From Acuticoccus sp. MNP-M23 (GTDB lineage: Bacteria; Pseudomonadota; Alphaproteobacteria; Rhizobiales; Amorphaceae): DNA of 64,000 nucleotides. Position numbers and translations under genes: made by a program. The DNA lies in NCBI RefSeq assembly GCF_031195445.1, contig NZ_CP133480.1, positions 4,518,501 to 4,582,500 on the forward strand, given 5' to 3'. Under the pieces are notes generated by a model. That model did no database searches and was not told the DNA's origin. It saw nothing but the letters and a program-made list of their open reading frames with translations. Below are positions 2,257-19,805 of this stretch, one piece after another (position 1 is the stretch's first letter; every line of letters begins with the position of its first letter).

Positions 2257-4581
2257 ATGAGCACAGAGTCGACATTCGGCCGCGCGCCAAACCTCCTCAA
2301 CAACATCACCACATCGACCAAGATCGTCGCATCAGTGCTCCTGATCTTCATGCTGTTCGTCCTGTCGCAGGGCCTGAGCTACCAGCGCGCGCGCAATATC
2401 GCGGACAATTTTACCAAGCTGGAGGCAGCGGCCAGCGAGAACCTGCATGTCATCAAGCTGGAAGAACGGCTTGCCGAGGCCTGGGCGGCTATCCTGGATT
2501 ACCGGGTTACACCGTCCAACGACCGGATGCAGGCCGTGCACGAAGCGCTGCGCGAAATGGAGCGGGAGCGCGCACATGTTCAACGCGGGGTGACAAGCGA
2601 GGCAGCCAGCCCGTTGCTCGCCGAGATCGCGGGCCTGCTTGACCGGTTTGAAATCAATGTCGCGCGCACGCTCGAACTTCAAGCGCAGCGCAGCGTGCTC
2701 GTCACAACCCTTGAGACCACCGGCAACAGCCTGACGGCCCACTTGACCGAAGCCATCGACACCGCGAACGCAGCCAGCAACCCCGAAGCAATGGAGGCAA
2801 TGCGCGCCGTCGAAGCTCTGCTCCTCAAGTCCCGCCTCTCCGTCCAGCGCTTCCTGACGGCTGGCACCCCGGCATCGCTCACCACCGCGCGGGACTATCT
2901 GTCCGAGGCGCAGGCGCTGGCCCCGCGGATGGCGCTGCTCGCATCCCAGTCAGGCGCGGCCGTTTCCGCCAGCACCTATCAGGACGGCCTCGAAAACTAC
3001 CGCACGAAATTGGATGCGCTGGGCGACATCAGCCAGGAGTTCAAGACGACGCTGGGGCAGGAAACCGGCGCGGTGAAGACCGAAATCATCGAGAAGCTCG
3101 ATCAGGTGGCGGAGCTTCTGCTGGTCGAAGAGGCTGCGTTGAACGACGCAACCGAAGGGACCATCGCCGGCATGGTCGTGTTCTGCATCGTCGTTCTGGT
3201 TGCAGGCCTCCTCCTTCTAACCGCCATCGGCTTCATTCAAATCCAGACCCTGTCGCGCCCCTTGCGCGCCGTCACCGCCGCCCTCGACGATCTGGCCCAG
3301 TTCAAAACCCGCTTTGCCGTCCGCGAAAAGAACGCAAAGGACGAACTTGGCCGGATGTGGGACAGCGTTGCGCAGCTGCGTCCGGCGCTGGCTGCTGTGG
3401 ACACACAGACCAAGATGGTGAACGGCATGTCCCTGCCAGTCATGCTTGCCGATCCGCAAAATGACTTCAAGATCACCTACATGAACGACGCGGCGAAAAG
3501 CGTTCTCGAAAAGTTGCGCGACCATCTCCCCTGCGGTCCCGACGAGATGATGGGCCGCTCCATCGACATGTTCCACGAAAACCCGGAACGTCAGCGGCGC
3601 ATCCTGAGCGATCCCAGCAACCTCCCCTGGCGCGGCATGATCGACTTCAAGGGCCTCGAATTCTTCGACCTTTACGTCGCCCCACTGTTCGACCGGGATG
3701 GCGTTTACAGCGGAACGGTCCTGTCGTGGCGCGTCGTGACGGCAGAGATGACGCGGCTGAACGAGATCGAGGACGACGTTCGTCGAACCGTCCATGACAT
3801 CAACGAGACCTTCAGCGCCATGCGCAGCCGCATCGGCAATATCGGCGACGGCGTGCAGAAAACACGCACGCACCTCAAATCCGGCTCGGAAGCGGTCTTC
3901 TCTGCATCCAGCAGCGTCCAGACCGTTGCGTCCGCCGCGGAGGAACTGTCCGCCTCCATCAGCGAGATCTCGACCCAGATGACGCAGTCGTCCCGCCGCA
4001 GTTCGGAAGCTGCCAGCGTTGCCAAGGATGTCGCAAGCCGGGCTGAAACGCTCTCGGCCGCCAGCCGCAACATCTCCACGGTGGTGGAGACCATCTCGGA
4101 AATTGCCAACCAGGTCAGCCTGCTTGCTCTCAACGCCACCATCGAGGCCGCCCGCGCCGGCGAGGCCGGCAAGGGGTTTGCGGTGGTCGCCACCGAGGTG
4201 AAGAACCTCGCCGTCCAGACGGGGCAGGCCACCGCCAAGGTCAGCGAGCAGACAAGCGCCATTCAGGAGCAGATCGCAAACGTCACCGAAGGCATCACCA
4301 ACGTGTCGCGGGTGATCGAGGAGATCAACGAAGTGTTCGTCAGCGTGGCGGCGTCTGCCGAAGAACAGCAGGTCGCCACCAGCGAGATTAGCCGGAATGC
4401 GCAGATCGCGGCTGAAGGCGCCGAGAACGCAACCACGACCATTCAGGAGGTGGAGAATTTCTCCGAGGCCAACATGGCGGCGACCCAGGAGCTCAGCCAA
4501 TCGGCCGAAGCGGTCTCGTCCGCCAACGACAATCTTGGCCGCGAAACCGACCGTTTCCTGGAAGTGCTGCGCCGGGTCTGA
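2257..4581 (+). CDS. Methyl-accepting chemotaxis protein with PAS-like region
   Basis: A 774-residue chemoreceptor. The first membrane helix (about residues 25-44) and a second (about 305-326) bracket a helical periplasmic sensor of about 260 residues. A HAMP-like linker and a PAS-like segment (about 385-500, beginning [20 protein letters not shown]) come next. The C-terminal signalling domain carries the conserved hairpin [20 protein letters not shown], which binds CheA/CheW. The ATG at 2257 is chosen because GGGAG (2242-2246) lies 10 bases upstream; an in-frame TTG at 2230 would add nine residues without better support. No che genes are nearby. The ligand is unknown. Confidence 0.92.
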
Positions 4582-9389: not shown

Positions 9390-10169
9390 TCAGCGCGAAA
9401 CCAGCGCCAGAGCGCGCACGGGGCTGCCGGTGCCGTTCACGATCTTCAACGGCGCCACAATGAGAATGGCGCCCTTGGGGGGCAGCTTGTCGAGATTGCA
9501 CAGGCTGGCAAGGCCGTAACGCTCGTTCTTGTGCAGGATGTTGTGGGCGGGGAACGGGGGTTCCATGCCGCCGGCTTGCCCGGCATCGGTGCCGATGCAT
9601 TCGGTGCCCCAGCCCGCTGCGCCGCGCGCCACAATGTGCTCGATGCAGTCGACCGTGGGGCCGGGCGAATGGGGGCCGGTCTCGTCCGCGTTGAGGAACT
9701 CGGCTTCCGAGCCGTTGCGCTTGTGCCAGTCGGTGCGCATCACAACCCAGGAGCCGGGCTCGATCTCGCCATGCTCCTGTTCCCACGCCTTCACGCCGTC
9801 GGCGGTGAGGAGGAAATCGGGATCCTTGGCGGTTTCGGCCGAACAGTCGATCACGCAAACCGGGGCGACGACCTTTTGCACAGGCAGGCGGTCGGTGGTG
9901 CCGTTGGCGTAGTCCTTGCCGGTGATCCAGTGGGTCGGCGCATCGAAGTGGGTGCCGGAGTGCTCGCCGATCTTCAGCCAGTTCCACGCCCAGAACGGGC
10001 CATTGCTGTCATATTCGGAGATCTTGTGAATCTCGATCTTGGGGGTGTCGACCGCCAGCTCGGGCGGCAGCTTCAGGAGCGGTGTGTCCGGCCCCAGCGG
10101 CGCCGCAAGATCCACAACCTCGACGTTTCCCGACAACAATCCGTCGGCCAATTCTTTGAGTGCTGACAT
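9390..10169 (-). CDS. Cyclase-family protein (kynurenine formamidase-like metal hydrolase)
   Basis: A 259-residue member of the 'putative cyclase' superfamily (bacterial kynurenine formamidase, isatin hydrolase). The metal-binding signature HSGTHFDAPTHW is intact, with a later acidic/His region (GTDAGQAGG, FPAHNILHKNE). The ATG at 10169 is chosen because GGAGA lies 7 bases upstream; the GTG four codons earlier would overlap that site. It lies 82 bp upstream of the FAD oxidoreductase and MarR genes on the same strand, and is divergent from the second FAD oxidoreductase. These enzymes hydrolyse amides or cyclic esters; the exact substrate is unknown. Confidence 0.85.
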   Translation of the reverse strand: MSALKELADGLLSGNVEVVDLAAPLGPDTPLLKLPPELAVDTPKIEIHKISEYDSNGPFWAWNWLKIGEHSGTHFDAPTHWITGKDYANGTTDRLPVQKVVAPVCVIDCSAETAKDPDFLLTADGVKAWEQEHGEIEPGSWVVMRTDWHKRNGSEAEFLNADETGPHSPGPTVDCIEHIVARGAAGWGTECIGTDAGQAGGMEPPFPAHNILHKNERYGLASLCNLDKLPPKGAILIVAPLKIVNGTGSPVRALALVSR

Positions 10170-16621: not shown

Positions 16622-17662
16622 TCAACTATGCGGACCGATTTCCGCTGCGATGGTCTGCGCATTGTGCGCCATCATTGCAAGGTAGCTGGACGCAGGCCCG
16701 TCCGGTCCCGACAGCGTGCCTGCGTAGAGCGTCCCGCCGATGCGCGCGTCGGTTTCGGCGGCAATCTGCCGCGACAGCCGCGGGTCGGACCCTGCCTCCA
16801 GAAACACCGCCTTCACGCCGTCGGCCCGGATTTCGGTGATGATGCGGGCCATGTCGGTTGCCGAGGGTTCGGCATCGGTGCTGAGCCCCACCGGCGCCTC
16901 GAAGCGCAGGCCGTAGTCCCGGCCGAAATAGGCAAACGCATCGTGGTTGGTGACGATCAGGCGGTTGCGGTCCGGCACTTGCGCAAAGGTGGCCGCAATT
17001 TCTTCGTGCAGCGCCTCCATCCGCGCCACATAGCGGGCAAGGTTGGCGCGGTAGATGTCAGCACCTTCCGGATCGAGGCTGATCAGCCCGTCGGCAATCA
17101 CCGCCGCATAAAGCGCGCCATTTTCAAGGCTGTGCCAGGCGTGCGGATCGAACGCGCCGTGGTGGTGACCGTGGTCTTCGGCATGGTCCGCGTGCGCTTC
17201 GGCCTCATGCGCGTGCTCCGCGTGCTCTTCATGGCCGTGCTCATCTGCGTCGTGCTCATGCTCGTCAGCGTGGGCTTCATGCTCGTGCGCATGCTCATCG
17301 GAATGGGCGTCGTGCCCATCGCTGTCGGCGGGGATCGGTTCCACGTTGGCGGTGGCGACAACCACCGGGCCTTCGTAGCCTGAACTGTCCTTCAGGCGGT
17401 CGATCCAGCCTTCCAGCTGCAAACCGTTGACGACCAGAAGGTCCGCCTCGGCAATGCTTTGCGCGTCGCGTGGGGCGGGGCGAAACACATGCGGGTCTCC
17501 GGTTTCGCCGACCAGCGAGGTGACGTTTGCCCGGTCGCCGGCCACGTTGCGCGTCATGTCGGCCAGAATGGGCATGGTGGCGACCACCCGCAGCGGTTCA
17601 GCCGAAGCGGCCGATGCGCCGAGAAGCGCGCACGCGGCAACCGCGCTCAAAAGAAATTTCAT
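16622..17662 (-). CDS. znuA: Zinc ABC transporter periplasmic binding protein
   Basis: 346 residues, cluster A-I (TroA-like) metal-binding protein. A signal peptide (MKFLLSAVAACALLGASAASA) precedes the fold. Metal-site regions are visible: GDPHVFRPAP (first His), DPHAWHS (second His), VTNHDAFAYFGRDYG (third His) and a C-terminal Asp/Glu region (FLEAGSDPRLS). A long His/Asp/Glu-rich insert (about residues 112-175, many HxH repeats) is typical of zinc rather than manganese members and probably collects Zn2+ for the site. The ATG at 17662 lies four bases after the znuB stop, with TGGAGG upstream. Confidence 0.95.
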   Translation of the reverse strand: MKFLLSAVAACALLGASAASAEPLRVVATMPILADMTRNVAGDRANVTSLVGETGDPHVFRPAPRDAQSIAEADLLVVNGLQLEGWIDRLKDSSGYEGPVVVATANVEPIPADSDGHDAHSDEHAHEHEAHADEHEHDADEHGHEEHAEHAHEAEAHADHAEDHGHHHGAFDPHAWHSLENGALYAAVIADGLISLDPEGADIYRANLARYVARMEALHEEIAATFAQVPDRNRLIVTNHDAFAYFGRDYGLRFEAPVGLSTDAEPSATDMARIITEIRADGVKAVFLEAGSDPRLSRQIAAETDARIGGTLYAGTLSGPDGPASSYLAMMAHNAQTIAAEIGPHS

Positions 17663-17666
17663 GGCG

Positions 17667-18536
17667 TTAAGCCTCCAGGTGACGCGAGCGCGGCCAGAAC
17701 CGCGCCGCCAGACTGCCGTGGGGTCCGCACAGGAGCGAGACCACGTAGAACGCACCGAGGACCAGAATGATCGCAGGGCCCGACGGCTGATTGAAGTGGA
17801 AGGAAAGGAGCAGGCCGGCCACACTCGCAAGAAGAGCGAACAGCACCGCCACGGCCGCCAGCGCACCGACGCTGACCGCCCAGAACCTCGCGGATGCGGC
17901 CGGCAGCACCATCATGCCAACCGCCATCAGCGTGCCCAGCGCATGGAAAGCCCCCACAAGGTTGACCACCGCCAGCGCCAGAAAACCAAAATGCGCCACG
18001 AACGACAGGCGACTGACCCCGCGCAGAAAATGCGGATCGAGGCATTCCATCACCAGCGGGCGGTAGAGGACTGCAAGCGCAAGAAGGGTGAGCGTTGCGA
18101 TGGCACACAGGAGGATCAGCGCATCGTCGTCCAGCGCCAGAACGGAGCCGAACAGGATGTGCATCAGATCCAGATTGTTGCCGCCGGCGGAAATCATCGT
18201 CACGCCGATGGCGAGCGAGATGAGGTAGAAGGCGGCAAGGCTGGCATCCTCGCGCAAGATGGTGGTGCGGCTGACCGCACCGGCCGCGAGCGCCACCAGA
18301 ATGCCGGCGATGAGGCCGCCAACGGTCATGGCGGACAGCGACAGCCCGGCGAGCAGATAGCCCGCCGCCGCGCCCGGCAGGATGGCATGGGCCATGGCAT
18401 CGCCGGTGAGGCTCATGCGGCGCAGCATCAGGAACACCCCCACGGGCGCTGCTCCAAGGCCCACGGCCACGCAACCCACCAGCGCCCGCCGCATGAACGC
18501 GAACTCGACGAAGGGCGAAACGATGTCGAGGCTCAT
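17667..18536 (-). CDS. znuB: Zinc ABC transporter permease
   Basis: A 289-residue, ABC-3 family inner-membrane permease with eight or so hydrophobic helices. Recognisable blocks are FLMLRRMSLTGDAMAHAILP near the N-terminus (the coupling region to ZnuC) and AFHALGTLMAVGMMVLPAAS near the C-terminus. Its ATG (18536) overlaps the znuC stop as ATGA, so the ATPase and permease are translationally coupled. It forms the membrane channel of the ZnuABC importer. A longer open frame upstream is the shadow of znuC and is not part of this gene. Confidence 0.95.
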   Translation of the reverse strand: MSLDIVSPFVEFAFMRRALVGCVAVGLGAAPVGVFLMLRRMSLTGDAMAHAILPGAAAGYLLAGLSLSAMTVGGLIAGILVALAAGAVSRTTILREDASLAAFYLISLAIGVTMISAGGNNLDLMHILFGSVLALDDDALILLCAIATLTLLALAVLYRPLVMECLDPHFLRGVSRLSFVAHFGFLALAVVNLVGAFHALGTLMAVGMMVLPAASARFWAVSVGALAAVAVLFALLASVAGLLLSFHFNQPSGPAIILVLGAFYVVSLLCGPHGSLAARFWPRSRHLEA

Positions 18537-19267
18537 GCAGCCCGCCGGCAGAAATCGGCATGGTCGTCGAACGCTTCCCCGACGGTGCGGGCGCGCGAGA
18601 TGTTTTCGCGCGACAAGACGTCCGCGGTGCGGCCATGGGCCACCAGCTCGCGGGCAAGCAGCATCGTTTGCGGAAAGGCACGGCGCACCAGGTCGATGTC
18701 GTGGACCACGGTGAGGATGGTGCGGCCTTCGGCATGCCATTTTCCGACAATTGCCAAAAGGTCCTCGATGGTCCGCTCGTCCACCGCGGCAAAGGGCTCG
18801 TCGAGCAAAATGACCTCGCAGTCCTGCAGGAGGAGCCGCGCAAACAGCACCCGCTGCATCTGCCCGCCGGACAGGGCACCGATCTGCCGCCGCTCGAAGC
18901 CGGACAGCCCCACCGCTGCCATCGCGCCGCGCGCCAGCTCCCGGTCCGCAGCCTTGAGGCGGCCGAAGGCCCCTGCCCGCGCCCAGAGGCCCATGGCGAC
19001 AACTTCAAGGACGCCGATTGGGAAGCTGCGATCGATCTCGCTCAGCTGTGGCAGGTAGGCGACGCTCTTTCGGGGCGGCCCTTCGATGCTTCCGGTGTGC
19101 GGCTTGATCTCGCCAACCAGTGCCTTCAGGAGCGTGGACTTGCCGCCGCCATTGGGGCCGACCAGCGCAGTCATCGAGCCTGGCTGAAAACTGGCCGTCA
19201 GGTGATGGACTGCCGGATGCCGGTTGTAGCCGAGGGTGACGTTGGACAGCGTGATTGGCGCGCTCAT
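18533..19267 (-). CDS. znuC: Zinc ABC transporter ATP-binding protein
   Basis: 244 residues, single ABC ATPase domain that drives ZnuAB. Walker A GPNGGGKST (residues 38-46), Q-loop AYLPQLSEID, signature LSGGQMQRVLFAR, Walker B EVILLDEP, and switch His VVHDIDLV are all intact. The start ATG at 19267 overlaps the stop of a 32-codon ORF (ATGA), and the gene's own stop overlaps the znuB start. The block zur, small ORF, znuC, znuB is thus joined by four-base overlaps throughout. Confidence 0.95.
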   Translation of the reverse strand: MSAPITLSNVTLGYNRHPAVHHLTASFQPGSMTALVGPNGGGKSTLLKALVGEIKPHTGSIEGPPRKSVAYLPQLSEIDRSFPIGVLEVVAMGLWARAGAFGRLKAADRELARGAMAAVGLSGFERRQIGALSGGQMQRVLFARLLLQDCEVILLDEPFAAVDERTIEDLLAIVGKWHAEGRTILTVVHDIDLVRRAFPQTMLLARELVAHGRTADVLSRENISRARTVGEAFDDHADFCRRAA

Positions 19268-19362
19268 GCAATGGCCCAGGCAAACAGCGCCCACAGGAGC
19301 ACTGCCAACACGGCGGCCAGCACCAGCCGCTCGGCAATGCCTGCCAGTAGGAGAGGCTTCAC
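19264..19362 (-). CDS. 32-residue single-pass membrane ORF between zur and znuC
   Basis: A 32-codon ORF whose GTG start overlaps the zur stop (GTGA) and whose TGA stop overlaps the znuC start (ATGA). The product is almost all hydrophobic after a short lead: MKPLLLAGIA, then ERLVLAAVLAVLLWALFAWA, then IA. It would form one membrane helix with a charged Glu-Arg pair at its N-terminal edge. I recognise no family. Precise coupling at both ends argues that it is translated. It may be a small partner of ZnuB, or merely a translational bridge that delivers ribosomes from zur to znuC. Confidence 0.55.
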   Translation of the reverse strand: MKPLLLAGIAERLVLAAVLAVLLWALFAWAIA

Positions 19363-19757
19363 GCTGCGCCCCGCTGGCAGCCGGCGCATACGCCATGCAG
19401 CTCGACAACGGATTTCTTGGGCGCGAAACCGCTCCGGCCGGCGCTTGCCGACAGCGATGCCACCGCATCGTGGTCGCTCACCTCGTCCACCAGGCCGCAA
19501 TCATCACAGATGGCGAACAGGGGCGATGCGTCGGTATGTTCGGCGCAGCAGGCAACGTAGGCGTTGATGGATTCAAGCCGGTGCGCAAGGCCAAGGCCGA
19601 TCAGCCGCTCCAGCGCGCGGTACGCCGTTGGCGGCGCGGCCGTGGGGCGCGTTGCGCGCAGGGCATCCAGCACATCATAGGCGCTGAGCGGCCGTGTGGC
19701 AGCGATGAGCGCATCGAGCGCGGTGCGCTGCGTGTCGTTGAGGCGTAATTCAGTCAT
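19359..19757 (-). CDS. zur: Zinc uptake regulator (Fur family)
   Basis: 132 residues, Fur-family metalloregulator. The N-terminal winged helix contains LIAATRPLSAYDVLDALRAT and TAYRALERLIGLGLAHRLES. The structural zinc cysteine pair is FAICDDCGLVDEV and the second pair is GVCAGCQ; the metal-site His residues lie between (AEHTDAS, SDHDAVA, ELHGVC). With Zn2+ bound it should repress the downstream znuCBA genes. The ATG at 19757 directly abuts a perfect 27-bp palindrome that overlaps a TATAAT box, so autorepression is likely. No Shine-Dalgarno sequence precedes the start, and the transcript is predicted to be almost leaderless. Confidence 0.93.
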   Translation of the reverse strand: MTELRLNDTQRTALDALIAATRPLSAYDVLDALRATRPTAAPPTAYRALERLIGLGLAHRLESINAYVACCAEHTDASPLFAICDDCGLVDEVSDHDAVASLSASAGRSGFAPKKSVVELHGVCAGCQRGAA

Positions 19758-19784
19758 GGCGAAGCGTATATTATACGCTTCGCC
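19758..19784. promoter_or_regulatory. Perfect 27-bp palindrome: probable Zur operator
   Basis: GGCGAAGCGTATA-T-TATACGCTTCGCC is a perfect 13-bp inverted repeat around one central base. It sits directly against the zur start codon. Fur-family regulators bind such AT-centred palindromes, and Zur genes commonly control themselves with znuCBA. The palindrome contains the predicted -10 box of the operon, so a bound repressor would block RNA polymerase. Confidence 0.8.
19770..19775 (-). promoter_or_regulatory. Consensus -10 box (TATAAT) of the zur-znu operon
   Basis: On the minus strand the palindrome centre reads TATAAT. With a start point about 7 bases downstream, the mRNA would have only some 5-7 bases before the zur ATG. 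No good -35 hexamer is seen at the usual 16-18 bp spacing. Confidence 0.55.
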
Positions 19785-19805
19785 ATCGCGCAAGCCGGTT
19801 CGTTG

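Follow-up and report, generated by a model that had tools for sequence, protein, structure and literature searches.

The open reading frame between zur and aztA in the window (the whole stretch of 64,000 nucleotides analysed here, from Acuticoccus sp. MNP-M23), named smp in this work, recurs widely: 117 of the 135 distinct AztAB-type loci compared have a homologue just upstream of aztA. It is encoded next to aztA and was found nowhere else in the 40 genomes searched, and its protein is under purifying selection. We conclude that smp is a genuine conserved micropeptide gene, and we consider it likely that its product serves the AztAB-type (cluster A-I) zinc importers as an accessory subunit. 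The accepted components of a zinc ABC importer are a binding protein, a permease and an ATPase; an extra micropeptide at this frequency changes the parts list for functional and structural cloning, and it gives a defined test of the assembly or regulation of AztAB importers.

The smp gene and its operon

In the window, the operon is arranged in the order palindrome, zur, smp, aztA, aztB and aztC, with the following features:

19756..19786: perfect palindrome of 31 bp (15+1+15), over the zur start codon
19359..19757, minus strand: zur-like regulator of the Fur family, 132 aa, stop overlapping the smp start
19264..19362, minus strand: smp, single-helix membrane protein gene, GTG start, 32 aa
18533..19267, minus strand: aztA-like zinc ABC transporter ATP-binding subunit (NF040873), earlier labelled znuC
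17667..18536, minus strand: aztB-like permease, 289 aa, start overlapping the aztA stop, earlier labelled znuB
16622..17662, minus strand: periplasmic zinc-binding protein (aztC/znuA-like), PF01297 at 280.8 bits on a longer reading frame

Read from 19362 to 19264, smp consists of 32 codons, beginning with GTG, and a stop, and its product is KPLLLAGIAERLVLAAVLAVLLWALFAWAIA. The zur stop TGA (19361-19359) shares bases with the smp GTG (19362-19360), and the ATG of the aztA-like gene (19267-19265) shares bases with the smp TGA (19266-19264), giving four-base overlaps on both sides. The frame and its two overlaps are therefore as given in the preliminary description, which left the strand (minus) unstated. 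That description also held that coupling at both ends together with a clean membrane segment would rarely arise by chance; the overlaps are real, but such four-base overlaps are a habit of this operon, as the aztA/aztB junction is likewise overlapped (ATGA at 18536-18533), and taken alone they are weak evidence. The case for smp as a gene thus rests on comparative data. The AlphaFold model of the product is a single helix spanning residues 9-31 (mean pLDDT 94.3), and the window member has no His-rich tail.

The two genes following smp had been named znuC and znuB, labels that have to be replaced by aztA-like and aztB-like. The ATPase scored 228.7 bits against the AztA family NF040873, above the cut-off of 220, and only 85.5 bits against the ZnuC profile (cut-off 306). 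The permease, which matched PF00950 at 164.9 bits, reached 251.4 bits against AztB NF040871, under the cut-off of 280, and 71.2 bits against the ZnuB profile (cut-off 284); it is thus AztB-like without being a formal member of that family. Judged by these profile scores, the window transporter is AztAB-like rather than a classical ZnuBC. The operon also departs from the classical aztABCD arrangement, in which aztD lies nearby and there is no extra small gene: smp is present, and no AztD match was detected between positions 10001 and 28000 of the window. The zinc-binding protein (16622-17662) contains a very long loop rich in His, Glu and Asp.

The regulator matched the FUR domain PF01475 at 26.2 bits (cut-off 23.1), and its best NCBIfam match was Zur NF008646 at 99.7 bits, below the cut-off of 167 that defines membership of that family. 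The palindrome over its start codon is likely to be an autoregulatory Zur operator of the window operon. With up to 3 mismatches allowed, the genome contains the 21-bp core of the palindrome only once, and the core GCGTATAATATACGC, in a 15-bp version, also occurs at the zur start of another locus (L009). The sequence of the window palindrome is unlike the GTTATAATATAAC type.

Distribution of smp among AztAB-type loci

The regulator, used as a query, matched 12 times in 8 genomes of the genus, and the GTDB contig collection gave 48 loci; nine distinct loci other than the window carried the regulator followed by an AztA-type gene on the same strand. A homologous ORF lies in the gap from zur to aztA in all nine of these junctions; when the window is counted as a tenth, nine of the ten have a start codon that shares bases with the zur stop. 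The comparison of this junction among relatives that the preliminary description proposed has thus borne out its expectation, with the frame, the rough length and the hydrophobic helix all kept. At one locus (L053) where the AztA-type gene is divergent from zur, the smp ORF is absent, and on plasmids smp ORFs were found at AztA-type loci without zur in front.

For a wider survey, genome-wide AztA searches were carried out at the level of family (10 genomes), class (385 genomes) and phylum (398 genomes, overlapping), and up to the best 30 loci of each were taken, together with 60 further regions. In all, there were 192 distinct AztA-like loci, and the 135 with at least 180 bits for AztA and at least 200 bits for AztB (tblastn) constitute the AztAB-type set. 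An smp profile built from 36 seed proteins of the same set was run on the loci against all six-frame stop-to-stop ORFs with a length of 18 codons or more. The 117 homologues just upstream of aztA comprise 113 scoring at least 14 bits and four judged by eye (L177, L186, L187 and L198); among non-seed loci alone, 77 of 99 reach 14 bits. Away from this position, no unexplained decoy ORF of the loci scores above 9.6 bits. By source, genome loci carry smp in 105 of 115 cases, plasmid loci in 8 of 15 and contig loci in 4 of 5. The distance from the smp stop to the aztA start ranges from -107 to +13, and the start codon of smp is uncertain in several members.

The 57 loci failing the AztAB test include four with an AztA-type gene and an smp score of at least 14 bits: two at which the sequence runs out (L123 and L125), one without an AztB match in the stretch examined (L168), and one on a plasmid of Gemmobacter aquarius (L102). 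One further locus (L159) has a borderline score of 13.6, and the other 52 score 6.1 or less. In the Gemmobacter locus, the aztA match at 3329-4046 is divided between two frames and aztA is missing from the gene table at this place, so that this aztA looks interrupted. The smp gene exemplifies an easily overlooked class: at the seven smp-bearing plasmid loci with a gene table, it is annotated as "hypothetical protein" in four and unlisted in three (the tables are incomplete, and the original records may differ).

In the remaining 18 AztAB-type loci, smp is displaced in one, fused in another and absent from 16. The displaced copy (L171; 245-1509, minus-strand reading) lies about 1 kb from aztA, with a transporter-like gene, EamA-like by eye, between them. 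In a plasmid of Bradyrhizobium sp. 155 (L224; 4988-5674), there is no smp before aztA, and an smp-like N-terminal segment is found on the gene after the binding-protein gene; this fusion gene is annotated, with a later start, as an NxxGxxAF choice-of-anchor repeat protein. Another fusion was seen at a locus from which aztA, aztB and most of aztC are missing (L031; 3354-3716): here zur precedes an smp whose frame continues into the C-terminal portion of the aztC zinc-binding protein. This looks like an operon deletion or, the source being a MAG, an assembly fault. The smp scores of these three loci all lie above the 9.6-bit decoy, and the copies appear real.

To examine whole genomes, an alignment (A1) of 55 members was searched against 40 genomes chosen as carriers and non-carriers. 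All 27 matches at E<=1.5e-5, in 26 genomes, adjoin an AztA-type gene known from the genome-wide AztA searches, the copy in G024 lying about 1.1 kb off, and the next best match, among at most 150 first-look candidates scored per genome, has E=0.011. No match at that level was obtained in 14 of the 40 genomes, three of which (G641, G563 and G671) have an aztA of the smp-lacking clade described below. Because of this limit on candidates, and because the model drew rows from many of the very genomes searched, this search is a test of exclusivity, not of discovery.

A same-strand zur-like gene within 500 nt in front of smp was detected in 21 of the 117 loci and in the other 96 none was detected (tblastn at 1e-8, which more diverged regulators would escape). 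The candidate role of smp as a partner of Zur was rejected on this count. Within 500 nt upstream, 32 of the 96 smp loci without a detected zur contain GTTAT-N(1-4)-ATAAC, a Zur-box-like pattern that was settled after some of the upstream sequences were known, three patterns having been tried. The same pattern occurred in 0 of 96 cases inside aztA/aztB, in 0 of 96 shuffled sequences (one mononucleotide shuffle per sequence), and in 2 of the 18 loci that have no smp ahead of aztA. These upstream sites are similar to Zur sites given for Caulobacter in PMC4176598. The preliminary description had assigned the small protein to the Zur/Znu system; a small membrane component is indeed real, but it is tied to AztAB importers, and zur was detected next to it at only the 21 loci mentioned.

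Selection on the peptide and its possible role

The coding function of smp was evaluated with 28 independent pairs, no locus being reused, picked at an AztA protein identity of at least 78%. Pooled dN/dS was 0.31 for smp, but reading these sequences in frames +1 and +2 gave 1.29 and 1.89; smp evolves faster than AztA, for which the value was 0.14. Single pairs gave values from 0.04 to 0.86 for smp, with two of the 28 above 0.8. An earlier listing was dropped, as its pairs had been picked by the identity of the peptide itself and were biased. The synonymous bias by which the preliminary description proposed to judge the frame is thus present, and only in the smp frame.

In the aligned core, an Arg before the helix is found in 115 of the 115 rows with a letter there, a Leu-Trp pair within the helix is conserved (L in 102 and W in 110 of 117), and a second Trp (89 of 112) is followed by Ala (102 of 111). 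The conservation of a short Ala/Leu-rich helix can partly reflect composition; however, the invariant Arg, the conserved Trp and the frame control disfavor a composition artefact. Net charge is higher before than after the helix in 92 of 117 members, equal in 19 and lower in six. By the positive-inside rule, smp is therefore predicted to have its N-terminus inside and its C-terminus outside. Ahead of the helix, 24 of the 117 have a His-rich stretch (at least 6 His in 20 residues, at most 100 codons from the stop), in which the position of the start codon is unproven.

We envisage smp as a single-pass protein of the inner membrane that would pack against the AztB dimer, its N-terminus with the Arg lying on the cytoplasmic side and its Trp-rich end facing the periplasm. 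By analogy with KdpF and CydX in their complexes, it might aid the assembly, stability or activity of the importer under zinc scarcity, and the His-rich cytoplasmic tail of approximately one-fifth of the members could also bind or detect zinc where it leaves the importer. The suggestion in the preliminary description of a real small membrane component, perhaps a partner of the permease, is supported by the conserved frame and helix and by the dN/dS values, with binding to AztB as the conjectural part.

An alternative hypothesis is that smp sits on AztAB as a cytoplasmic zinc sensor or gate, whose tail would sense zinc inside the cell and slow import when zinc is plentiful. The N-in topology predicted from charge, the His-rich stretches before the helix and the Zur-box-like sites upstream of smp loci without a detected zur are all consistent with this role. 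However, a His-rich tail is lacking in the window member and in the majority of the others, and the helix is so short that there is no clear sensing domain; we regard this explanation as unlikely, if the best placed of the alternatives.

Still less probable is that smp serves not as a partner of the permease but as a membrane tether or assembly factor for another protein of the zinc operon (AztA, Zur or the periplasmic binding protein). The two fusions, to the NxxGxxAF repeat protein and to the aztC tail in the deleted operon, point in this direction, but each was found only once and the latter looks like a deletion, and at 96 of the 117 loci zur was undetected in front of smp.

The preliminary description had also mentioned a translational bridge, that is, a leader at whose end ribosomes re-initiate at aztA while the peptide itself is unimportant. 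At 85 of 117 loci, the smp stop and an in-frame aztA start share bases in an NTGA overlap and, as described above, the overlap with the zur stop is present in 9 of the 10 junctions compared; translational coupling may be a secondary effect of smp. As its sole role, a bridge has a slightly lower standing even than a tether: it would not account for selection on the amino acids, for the invariant Arg and conserved Trp or for the His-rich stretches, nor for the varying distances between stop and start, the copy kept about 1 kb upstream in L171 and the N-terminal segment located elsewhere in L224. Finally, a chance open frame without a protein product, which could be suspected in GC-rich DNA that often leaves long open frames, and in a region where many ORFs of the window overlap one another, can be regarded as refuted, given the contrast in dN/dS between the frames and the association with aztA.

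Relationship to known small proteins and zinc importers

Small subunits of transporters are a known kind of protein. KdpF, CydX and AcrZ are short one-helix proteins that bind larger membrane complexes, their partners being a P-type ATPase, an oxidase and an RND pump, respectively, and not an ABC importer. The smp product resembles them in being short and single-helix, and shares with the KdpF type of small subunit a single helix, a gene encoded with the transporter and conservation. It has no match to a sequence family, and the neighboring transporter is an ABC importer. The closest printed analogue met is ZrgD of the Vibrio cholerae zinc system zrgABCDE, which is presented in PMC9820375 as a single-helix hypothetical protein of 101 aa encoded in an operon for a zinc ABC transporter. 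The permease ZrgB is there predicted to be a MacB-like protein with 4 TM segments, and single knock-outs are described as without effect; the permease is thus of a different kind, and the likeness to smp is one of description only.

Searches of family databases led us to reject smp as a member of a known small-protein family. The window member matched nothing in Pfam or NCBIfam; among 47 members (A2), there was no NCBIfam match at E<=0.1, and stray Pfam matches involved six families with one or two members each (best E 0.004). In ten members, including plasmid and His-rich ones, all Pfam and NCBIfam matches were below the cut-offs, and these included two one-helix families, each in one of the ten: the "MFS transporter small subunit" NF047966 (10.7 bits, cut-off 24) and YshB NF033841 (17 bits, cut-off 34). 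No PADLOC family scored above its cut-off, and phmmer with the peptide against PDB sequences returned nothing at E<=10. No title or abstract describing smp was found in the literature searched, which took in few subscription journals. As far as these searches go, a small subunit for an AztAB-class zinc ABC importer is new.

The possibility that smp is a split-off or missing helix of AztB was also considered and rejected. The median length of AztB is 289 aa with smp (110 loci) and 289.5 aa without smp before aztA (18 loci), and the AlphaFold model of AztB aligned with the PsaBC chains (7KYP) over 270-290 columns, if loosely (TM-score ~0.6, rmsd ~10). Given the equal lengths and the nearly full-length match to the PsaBC permease, smp is an addition.

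The closest known systems are the AztABCD importer of Paracoccus denitrificans and possibly the rhizobial ZniCBA. The 16 loci that lack smp upstream of aztA include Paracoccus and Shinella plasmids annotated as aztABC/aztD, and their AztA and AztB are 50-57% and 58-64% identical, respectively, to those of the window (tblastn). The accessible portions of two reports (PMC5387054, PMC12183173) describe AztABCD-type zinc import under Zur and, in treating the AztABCD and rhizobial importers, make no mention of a small membrane protein. We infer that the P. denitrificans and R. leguminosarum importers belong to the smp-lacking clade. A bolder proposal, which we put forward tentatively and with more doubt than belief, is that AztAB importers are normally three-part, comprising AztA, AztB and a micro-subunit, and that the cytoplasmic tail of this micro-subunit, His-rich in approximately one-fifth of the members sampled, is a zinc-responsive gate. 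The micro-subunit would have been missed because the studied aztABCD systems (Paracoccus type, rhizobia) are probably in the smp-lacking clade, often with AztD instead.

When AztA was placed in a tree of 135 rows, all 16 smp-lacking loci fell into a single group (100/99); the presence of smp requires three changes, which match this group, L171 and L224 (the latter two both scored as "none"). The tree was midpoint-rooted and carried long-branch warnings, including those for L104 with L171 and L192 with L130; the 16-locus group could represent one loss or, under another root, one gain on the other side. As one clade of related transporters of the aztABCD type does without it, smp is not mechanistically indispensable. 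Of the 14 smp-lacking loci examined, nine have an aztD gene close to aztA, two of these having supplied the queries, and five show no AztD in the stretch; among 21 smp-bearing loci, with the window counted, aztD was found in none. This contrast is confined to one clade and is thus one evolutionary pattern rather than many events. Within a single family (f175), some genomes carry smp (L216 and L217) and others have the smp-less type, suggesting that the type of operon, not the species group, decides whether smp is present.
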